Shown one piece after another: positions 25,872 to 28,102 of a DNA stretch of 64,000 nucleotides; position 1 is the stretch's first letter; the number at the start of each line of letters is the position of its first letter. Under the pieces are notes generated by a model. That model saw only the letters and a list, made by a program, of their open reading frames with translations, had not been told where the DNA came from and searched no databases. Both the position numbers and the translations under genes were made by a program. Source of the DNA: Methanoculleus formosensis (GTDB lineage: Archaea; Halobacteriota; Methanomicrobia; Methanomicrobiales; Methanoculleaceae); contig NZ_VHLL01000001.1 of NCBI RefSeq assembly GCF_025384765.1, positions 372,001-436,000 of the forward strand, in the 5' to 3' direction.

Positions 25872-25905
25872 TCTCCTCCCGGGTCAACGTGTACTGGTAC
25901 CAGGT

Positions 25906-25976
25906 GCGATAGTAGTCTAGCGGTAGGACAGGGGCTTCCCAAGCCTCTAGCCCGGGTTCGATTCCCGGCTATCGCA
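25906..25976 (+). tRNA. tRNA-Gly (anticodon CCC)
   Basis: Full cloverleaf: acceptor GCGATAG/CTATCGC with discriminator A, D arm with TAGCGGTAGGA, anticodon stem GGGGC/GCCTC with loop TTCCCAA (anticodon CCC, reads GGG), T arm CCGGGTTCGATTCCCGG. No intron, CCA not encoded. It lies 34 bases after the kinase gene. Confidence 0.96.
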
Positions 25977-26017
25977 TGCCGTTTTTTTCTCGTCTTTCTC
26001 CCGGTTGGACGACGCTC

Positions 26018-26806
26018 TTATTCGTCGACGACGATCTCGAACCGGCAGTGATCGGACCCCATCGAGTAACACCGGGTCTCGACCGCTTCTGCCTGCCGGC
26101 CGTAGTGGCGGGAGAAGAGCGCCCGGAGGATGCCCGAGTCGAACGCACACGCGGGCTTTCCCGTCACCGGCAGGTCGACGCATTCGAAGCAGTCGTAGAC
26201 GAGGAGGACGAGCGGCTCCGTCTCCGCGACCTCGGTCCTTCCCAGACGGTGCTCTTCCCAGAACCGGGCGATATTCGTGCAGAACGCTCCCGTATCCGGG
26301 TCGGCAACCGCCGGGTAGAGTTCCTCGCCCAGCCATTCTCCGGACCGGGTGAGGAGCGGGTCGAGGAGGACTCCCTCCTGCATGAGCGCCACCCGGATCG
26401 TCCGGAACGCGAGCCGGTAGAATGCATTGGGGTCGCCGGACCCGGGCCGGTACATCCCTGCATAGGCGGCAAGGTCATCAGCCACCCGCTCCTCGGGCGA
26501 GACGCTTGCGACGAGGTCGCCGGTGAGGGAGAAGATCTTCCTCCGGGAGTCCTCCGGGTCGGGCCGCGACCCGATCACGCCCGCTGCTGCGAGGTCCTGG
26601 AGGTGCACCGAGATCGTCGATTTCGCCCGCCCTGCGAGCACGACGAGTTCTTCGAAGGTACGCTCGCGCTCCCTGAGTGCGGCGAGGATCGTACGCCGCA
26701 CCGGGTTCCCGACCGCCCGCGTCCCGCCCGGTGTCGAGTAGAGATCTATCTCGTGGTCCGGCCTCGGCCTGCCTGCCTTCCCCCTGCCGGCCCCCCTCTG
26801 TTCCAT
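26018..26806 (-). CDS. ArsR-type winged-helix regulator with V4R ligand domain
   Basis: 262 residues from the ATG at 26806. The N-terminal winged helix (about 30-95) has PVRRTILAALRERERTFEELV and a recognition segment with KSTISVHLQDLAAAGVI. The C-terminal V4R (4-vinyl reductase) domain (about 115-262) contains the CFECVDLPVTGKPACAFDSGILRALFSRH pattern; the Cys residues could bind a metal or small molecule. Divergent from fprA with a 75-base shared promoter holding an 18-bp palindrome, so it probably controls fprA and itself. Confidence 0.85.
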   Translation of the reverse strand: MEQRGAGRGKAGRPRPDHEIDLYSTPGGTRAVGNPVRRTILAALRERERTFEELVVLAGRAKSTISVHLQDLAAAGVIGSRPDPEDSRRKIFSLTGDLVASVSPEERVADDLAAYAGMYRPGSGDPNAFYRLAFRTIRVALMQEGVLLDPLLTRSGEWLGEELYPAVADPDTGAFCTNIARFWEEHRLGRTEVAETEPLVLLVYDCFECVDLPVTGKPACAFDSGILRALFSRHYGRQAEAVETRCYSMGSDHCRFEIVVDE

Positions 26807-26855
26807 AGGTACACATCGAAAGGATGATATATCAATTGTTCGGATATATTGGAAC

Positions 26856-26873
26856 GTTCGTATTGGTACGAAC
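26856..26873. promoter_or_regulatory. Palindromic operator in the V4R-regulator/fprA promoter
   Basis: GTTCGTATTGGTACGAAC is a perfect inverted repeat with 7-bp arms and a 4-bp centre. It lies nine bases before the fprA ATG and just downstream of TATA-like GGATATATT (26842-26850). A dimeric regulator bound here would block fprA transcription or initiation. GTTCG also occurs once more upstream (26838-26842). Confidence 0.6.
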
Positions 26874-26881
26874 AAGGTGTG

Positions 26882-28102
26882 ATGACAATGATGGCTACGG
26901 AACTTGCCCCCGGCGTCCACTGGGTCGGGGCTATCGACTGGAATCTCCGGGAGTACCATGGCTACACCCTCCCCGGGACGACCTACAACGCCTACCTCGT
27001 CCGGGGTGAGAAGACGGCGCTCATCGACGGCGCCTACCACGGGTTCGAGGGAGAGGTCCTCGGCCGCATCGGGTCCGTCTGCGACCCCGGCACGATCGAC
27101 TACATCGTCGTGAACCACATCGAGATGGACCACTCCGGCACTCTGCCCGCGTTCGTGAAGAAGATGCCCGAAGTCCCGATCTACTGCACGGAACGGGCGA
27201 AGGCCGGCCTTGCCCGCCACTACGATATCAGCGGCTGGAAGATCAAGGTCGTGAAGACCGGCGACACCCTCGATCTCGGGGGAAAGACGCTCACCTTCCT
27301 TGAGGCGCCGATGCTCCACTGGCCCGACTCGATGTTCACCTACCTCGCCGAGGATGCCATTCTCTTCCCGAACGACGCCTTCGGGCAGCATCTCGCAAGC
27401 GCCGCCCGGTTCGACGATCAGCTCGGAAAGGATGCAGCGCTTGCCCACGCGCAGAAGTTCTTTGCGAACCTGATCATCCCTCTCGCGCCGAAGGTCCTGA
27501 AGAAACTCGACGAGGTCGGGGGGCTCGGGATCGATATCAGGATGATCGCGCCGAGCCACGGCATCATCTGGCGGTCCTACGCCGGGGATATCCTCAAGGC
27601 CTACACCGACTGGAGCCGGGGCGTATCGAAGAACAAGGTCACGATCGTCTACGACACCATGCACGGCTCGACCACCATGATGGCGAAGGCGATCGCCGAG
27701 GGTGTCATGGCTGAAGGCGCCGACGTCCGGGTCTGCCTGCTGCGGGACGGGCGCTACGAAGGGACACACCGTAGCGACATCGTCACGGAGGTGCTCGACT
27801 CGAAGGCGGTCATCGTCGGGTCGCCGACGCTTCAGGACGAGGTTCTCCCCACGGTGGCGGGGTTCCTCAGTTACCTCCGCGGCCTATCGCCCGGCCGCCT
27901 TACCGCAAAGAAGATCGGGTGCGCGTTCGGGTCCCACGGTGGCATGGGCGGAGCGGTCGCTCAGGCGGAGGAAGCCCTGAAGGCGGCCGGGCTCGAGGTG
28001 ATCGACGGCGGGTTCCACGTGAACTACCGACCGGACGCCGATGAGGTTGCCCGGGCATATGAACTCGGCCGGACGGTGGCGCGGGAGATCCGCGCTCGCT
28101 GA
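26882..28102 (+). CDS. fprA: Flavodiiron protein, F420H2 oxidase type
   Basis: 406 residues. Reduces O2 to water using F420H2, an oxygen defence in methanogens. The metallo-beta-lactamase domain holds the di-iron ligands HIEMDHSG (about 80-87), later His/Asp residues (LHWPDSM, NDAFGQH) and PSHG. The flavodoxin domain starts near residue 255 (TIVYDTMHGSTTMMAKAI binds FMN phosphate) and runs to the end. The ATG at 26882 is chosen over one at 26849 because it follows AAGGTG and lies downstream of the operator. No rubredoxin gene is adjacent. Confidence 0.93.
   Translation: MTMMATELAPGVHWVGAIDWNLREYHGYTLPGTTYNAYLVRGEKTALIDGAYHGFEGEVLGRIGSVCDPGTIDYIVVNHIEMDHSGTLPAFVKKMPEVPIYCTERAKAGLARHYDISGWKIKVVKTGDTLDLGGKTLTFLEAPMLHWPDSMFTYLAEDAILFPNDAFGQHLASAARFDDQLGKDAALAHAQKFFANLIIPLAPKVLKKLDEVGGLGIDIRMIAPSHGIIWRSYAGDILKAYTDWSRGVSKNKVTIVYDTMHGSTTMMAKAIAEGVMAEGADVRVCLLRDGRYEGTHRSDIVTEVLDSKAVIVGSPTLQDEVLPTVAGFLSYLRGLSPGRLTAKKIGCAFGSHGGMGGAVAQAEEALKAAGLEVIDGGFHVNYRPDADEVARAYELGRTVAREIRAR

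Follow-up and report, generated by a model that had tools for sequence, protein, structure and literature searches.

Little is known of oxygen sensing in strictly anaerobic methane makers, and MsvR, the methanogen V4R regulator (Isom 2013, PMC3729527), has been characterized in vitro in two species that disagree on fpaA control. A 64,000-nucleotide stretch of Methanoculleus formosensis DNA, here called the window, carries the gene for a V4R-domain regulator divergent from that for an F420H2 oxidase, and poses the question of whether the two constitute a redox switch and, if so, by which operator and which sensor. The locus is very probably an MsvR–fprA redox-switch module of a Methanoculleus-like methanogen, with its box also acting in trans on rubrerythrin, and its function in this organism is deduced from that of relatives. 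It is ordinary in kind and well supported; what the comparison appears to add, by inference from sequence, is a tandem operator, boxes acting in trans, a co-occurrence pattern, and a zinc-site match.

The regulator and oxidase genes

The regulator gene msvR (26018..26806, minus strand) encodes, by translation, a 262-residue protein that combines an ArsR-type HTH with a V4R domain (Pfam HTH_5 and V4R, PF02830). The protein passes the NCBIfam MsvR equivalog model NF053755 (score 288 bits; cut-off, 220), alone among the genes of its own 2.65-Mb genome, and its closest named relatives are from Methanoculleus, with 94% identity in M. chikugoensis. The preliminary description noted several cysteines in the ligand domain, and the protein indeed contains C176, C206, C209, C220, C246, and C254; the HTH and V4R domains and three conserved cysteines spaced 26 and 8 apart (C220, C246, and C254), the traits of MsvR, are all present. 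A PDB search with the single MsvR sequence gave HTH matches only, and the V4R relation emerged with profiles. The regulator is MsvR, an already described redox-sensing repressor, and the system is not new. A tRNA-Gly (CCC) gene at 25905–25977, on the opposite strand to msvR, ends 41 bases before the msvR stop codon.

The oxidase gene fprA (26888..28102, plus strand) may start at any of three in-frame ATGs, at 26882, 26888, and 26891. Its product has a metallo-beta-lactamase-like and a flavodoxin domain (Pfam ODP and Flavodoxin_1), and its best PDB matches, 6frm (E 1.3e-125) and 2ohh, are F420H2 oxidases of solved structure, so that, by homology, FprA would reduce O2 to water with F420H2. With the MsvR model and the FprA matches, the coordinates, gene identities, and divergent arrangement given in the preliminary description are borne out, and its prediction of an oxygen- or redox-responsive switch, made with the family unnamed, gains support from the MsvR identity and from the published relatives.

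In M. thermautotrophicus, according to the excerpts of Isom 2013 (PMC3729527) used here, which describe Karr 2010, msvR and the fpaA operon are divergently arranged, and reduced MsvR represses both. In that species the MsvR boxes extend over the start site of fpaA and the BRE/TATA of msvR; two of them together make up TTCGTAN4TACGAA, and the third is a partial direct repeat (PMC3729527). Because of this published layout and redox repression, the present locus is regarded as the known module. In M. acetivorans, MsvR fails to bind once its box is mutated (PMC3729527, same excerpts), and thioredoxin-dependent reactivation of MsvR is mentioned in the part of a review available here. Repression, box binding, and redox dependence have thus been established by others in relatives and would hold here by analogy; among the papers searched, none treats MsvR together with Methanoculleus.

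The operator and promoters in the msvR–fprA gap

The better of the two boxes in the 75-bp gap, box 2 (26856..26873), is a 7+4+7 inverted repeat with arms GTTCGTA/TACGAAC and centre TTGG; the arms are perfect and the centre is asymmetric, so that the "perfect" 18-bp palindrome of the preliminary description is not quite one. Box 2 contains the published box TTCGTAN4TACGAA at 26857–26872, upstream of msvR, as the single exact copy in the genome. As sole evidence for a site the palindrome was rejected, chance occurrence being too common: 7-4-7 repeats of this kind number 16 in the window, and among 2000 dinucleotide shuffles of the gap 98 hold some 7-bp-arm repeat (spacer 0–8) and 13 hold one with spacer 4. 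These same figures are what speaks for the repeat being a chance formation with no role, a reading whose probability is nonetheless close to nil, since box 2 is lifted above chance by its conservation across relatives.

That conservation was measured on 160 msvR genes above the family cut-off, 127 of them found among 199 genomes of the order and the other 33 elsewhere; matches within the order in G138, G122, G102, G134, and G091, and those in nine genomes of the phylum, fell below the cut-off. The core TTCG-N7-9-CGAA was found exactly upstream of 84/160 msvR genes, as against 2/159 equal-length downstream control stretches (one of the 160 loci had no control), and with 7 or 8 of its 8 letters in 145/160 upstream regions and 34/159 controls, which answers the question of conservation raised in the preliminary description. 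In the window's family (f1), the exact core accompanies 26 of 30 msvR genes at nearly one position, and 22 of 24 msvR–fprA pairs at a near-fixed place, with the inner 8 bases variable, a pattern that argues against chance. In families f2, f4, and f6, the core is mostly 7 of 8 or poorer, which weighs against the module reading.

An imperfect second box, box 1 (GTTCGGATATATTGGAAC, 26838..26855), abuts box 2 in exact 18-bp register, and the combined pattern GTTCG-N8-NGAA-N-GTTCG-N8-CGAA occurs once in the window. Across relatives, 73 fprA promoters were taken and two identical in sequence were dropped, leaving 71, of which 63 have a proximal box of 7–8 core letters; twelve of 22 fprA-type loci examined separately, namely eleven boxless ones and the fragment L232, were outside this count. 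In 52/63 of these promoters a second TTCG is found exactly 18 bp upstream, and in 56/63 the proximal CGAA is preceded, again at exactly 18 bp, by an NGAA, the next commonest distances being represented by 2 and 3 promoters, respectively; this fixed tandem, too, speaks against a chance repeat. The register suggests an operator of 36 bp, made of two abutting 18-bp boxes, which by inference would take up two MsvR dimers. The 18-bp operator proposed in the preliminary description is therefore a real site, to which the abutting box, then missed, is to be added as part of a larger operator. The exact 18-bp tandem register was not found described in the excerpts of Isom 2013 (PMC3729527).

The preliminary description also placed the site between a TATA-like sequence of fprA and its ATG. 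Two candidates were compared among 23 Methanoculleus pairs: the self-complementary GATATATC at 26826..26833 keeps a constant spacing to the msvR start in 21 of them, and the ATATA within box 1 is present in 13. The fprA TATA box is likely GATATATC rather than ATATA, which preserves the placement and changes the element, and this one TATA box is probably common to fprA and msvR. With the usual archaeal TATA-to-start spacing, fprA transcription is predicted to start near 26854, at the box junction, and msvR transcription at or next to its ATG. At four fprA promoters parted from msvR, two of them near-identical, the TATA-like element is, by eye, GATATGAG or GATATAGG, with the symmetry lost.

Linkage to fprA and boxes elsewhere

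As to whether the regulator stays with fprA, on which the preliminary description had staked its reading, msvR is divergent from fprA in 24/30 cases in f1, 20/52 in f5, 6/6 in f4, 6/11 in f2, and 0/28 in f6 (where 7 of 28 have fprA about 1 kb away), amounting to 56/127 in the order and 0/33 outside it. The linked cases include L093, whose fprA is interrupted by a stop codon, L095, where 473 bp separate the two genes, and L142, which has a misplaced start. The linkage is thus borne out in the window's family and in part of the order, and the 71/127 msvR genes of the order not divergent from fprA count against the module reading. On a 92-row tree, linkage takes about 10 changes as against 26 when shuffled, indicating that the neighborhood is clustered, yet was gained or lost repeatedly. 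Two MsvR paralogues were seen in the f5 genomes G125, G121, G168, and G166; G166 has neither copy divergent from fprA, and the remaining three each have one such copy and one that is not.

Irrespective of position, the two genes occur together. Among 199 Methanomicrobiales genomes, and with limits of E 1e-20 for msvR and 1e-90 for fprA, fprA is found in 84, of which 83 have msvR; 45 have msvR alone and 70 neither (Fisher p 1.5e-21, relatedness ignored although the genomes are not independent). The single genome with fprA and no msvR found (G141) is 79% complete.

Where the genes have parted, boxes persist at fprA. In G112 the two are separated by two genes (L280:1907-4930; Pfam amidohydrolase and molybdopterin oxidoreductase), which we take to resemble formylmethanofuran dehydrogenase subunits A and B, and an exact box lies at each of msvR and fprA; in G148 they are about 0.5 kb apart with one exact box each; and in G028, G052, and G128 fprA is distant from msvR with exact boxes retained. 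Among the 22 separately examined fprA-type loci, 7 have the exact core, 3 have 7 of 8 letters, and 12 neither, one of these last being the unreadable fragment L232. The second FprA-like gene of the present genome (35% identical, L060) is without an MsvR box. No MsvR box was found at any of seven fprA-type loci in family f8, which holds MsvR proteins with Methanosarcina-type traits, in agreement with the published failure of M. acetivorans MsvR to bind fpaA-type promoters.

These loci bear on whether the box serves msvR autoregulation only, with fprA a mere neighbor. The box does also occur at msvR genes without adjacent fprA, as in 22 of 23 f8 cases, and M. acetivorans MsvR bound the msvR promoter alone and not fpaA-type promoters, the box by itself being insufficient (PMC3729527, excerpts). 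Autoregulation alone is nevertheless improbable, given that the parted Methanoculleus fprA genes (L228, L229, L230, L231, and L233) carry exact boxes of their own and that fprA promoters in distant families preserve the tandem register. The comparison suggests that MsvR controls fprA in Methanomicrobiales, and supplies an exact operator for that control.

Further candidate targets were sought in the genome. A regulon based on the bare TTCGTAN4TACGAA with up to 2 mismatches was rejected, 22 sites against 26 in the reversed control showing the motif not to be specific. The stricter GTTCGN8CGAAC gave 8 sites as against 0 for its control: the msvR–fprA gap, a rubrerythrin gene, three belonging to a different, GC-rich repeat, and three that, by eye, seem to fall in coding sequence. 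The rubrerythrin gene (Pfam PF02915) is unlinked to msvR and has its exact box about 25 bases after a TATAAAT. In a comparison of 35 genus genomes covering 30 of 45 genus matches as loci, the 19 orthologues, which are at least 68% identical, come from 18 genomes, and include some near-identical pairs, show the exact core in 15/19 and 7 of 8 letters in 4/19, and the paralogue loci (52–55%) have the exact core in 0/11 and 7 of 8 letters in 2/11. Homologues in family f5, which are 56–62% identical and may not be orthologues, have the exact box in 0/30. The orthologue boxes suggest control of the unlinked rubrerythrin gene by MsvR in trans, against which stands the f5 result.

Two further observations concern boxes of this general kind. 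In one Methanoculleus genome only (G068), a hemerythrin gene (PF01814) has an exact GTTCGN8CGAAC box upstream (L279:1483-1500, G068:C1:573182-573199), and in that genome a rubrerythrin paralogue was found and no orthologue. Another palindrome, GTTCGGTTCYRGCCGAAC, occurs in three copies in apparently non-coding DNA of the present genome (L190–L192; G000:C1:162431, 168036, and 168188) and also in seven other genomes of the genus, and has the appearance of an operator for another regulator.

The V4R site and comparison with known systems

When a V4R profile of 34 MsvR sequences was aligned with MopR (7vqf), C220, E243, C246, and C254 fell on Cys, Glu, Cys, and Cys, the ligand set of V4R zinc sites of the MopR/DmpR type; the MopR positions, as counted here, are C155, E178, C181, and C189, and the DmpR zinc ligands are printed, in the excerpt used, as Cys151, Glu172, Cys177, and Cys185. 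In 160 MsvR rows these residues are kept in 158 (C220), 150 (E243), 149 (C246), and 157 (C254). The AlphaFold model of MsvR (pLDDT 92.9) has MopR and PoxR as its best folds and matches 5kbi with Z 15.8 and an rmsd of 2.4 over 134 residues. A zinc site with three Cys and one Gln is a demonstrated redox switch in V. cholerae H-NOX, as stated in the excerpt available. On the match to the MopR/DmpR ligands and this precedent, the published redox cysteines of MsvR are read as a zinc-thiolate site, and the conserved Cys3-Glu set suggests a zinc-thiolate redox sensor with zinc presumably bound. The excerpts of Isom 2013 (PMC3729527) were found to contain no zinc-site assignment of these residues, and a literature search on an MsvR zinc site found no further paper. 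Against this sensor, the zinc of the phenol sensors is described as structural (in the excerpt seen), and eight f8 rows (L181–L189 type) have Met and Lys or Asn for Glu and Cys246, with other cysteines nearby. The C206/C209 pair is widespread (146/160 and 153/160 rows); its absence from the redox-sensitive M. acetivorans MsvR implies that it is not an essential switch there.

The same structural matches—to the phenol sensors MopR and PoxR and to the acyl-binding Bet3—would fit an MsvR that senses a small ligand, aromatic or fatty acyl, like other V4R proteins, with redox secondary. This is unlikely, if a shade less so than autoregulation alone: M. acetivorans MsvR binds in its reduced form only, H2O2 releases it, and the C206A variant binds regardless of redox state (PMC3729527, excerpts); moreover, the three cysteines and the glutamate are nearly invariant in the 160 rows, and the target genes concern oxygen.

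In the redox-switch module favored here, reduced MsvR dimers would sit side by side on the 36-bp tandem operator, which would span the region where fprA transcription starts as well as the sequence immediately upstream of the TATA box of msvR, so that both fprA and msvR would be held off. Oxygen or oxidants would alter the V4R domain, most likely at the Cys3-Glu metal site; MsvR would be released, and FprA and MsvR would be made, with FprA turning O2 to water with F420H2. The same box would place the unlinked rubrerythrin gene under this control in trans. A broader proposal, to which we give somewhat less than an even chance, is that Methanomicrobiales MsvR is a dedicated, nearly obligate controller of FprA with a small trans regulon (fprA, rubrerythrin, and the one-genome hemerythrin), a 36-bp double box beside a single self-complementary bidirectional TATA, and, as sensor, the Cys3-Glu zinc site of the V4R domain, originally structural and since converted to redox switching. 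The comparison thereby names further candidate MsvR targets and a concrete candidate sensor.

Among known systems, MopR shares with the present MsvR the V4R fold and the Cys, Glu-x2-Cys-x7-Cys ligand set, but MopR, PoxR, and DmpR have other output domains and sense phenol. V. cholerae H-NOX resembles it, in the excerpt used, in having a redox-active zinc site whose ligands are three Cys plus either Gln or His, and differs in heme binding and in its output domain. M. acetivorans MsvR has the same domains, the same box, and three V4R cysteines with the spacings 26 and 8, the counterparts of C220, C246, and C254 being C206, C232, and C240; it differs in that its msvR is not adjacent to fpaA, in not binding fpaA-type promoters (PMC3729527, excerpts), and in lacking the Cys-x2-Cys pair. 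Closest is the MsvR–fpaA locus of M. thermautotrophicus, where, as excerpted, msvR is likewise divergent from an F420H2 oxidase gene, the box is the same, the boxes reach over both the start site of the oxidase gene and the BRE/TATA region of msvR, and three of the four half-sites of the 36-bp tandem have counterparts in kind among the published boxes. A gene called rub lies within the fpaA operon there, according to the title of Karr 2010 as cited, whereas here no rubrerythrin gene directly follows fprA and rubrerythrin is encoded elsewhere with a box of its own; and, unlike in M. thermautotrophicus, the gap here holds a regular 2 × 18-bp tandem and perhaps a single TATA box used by both genes.
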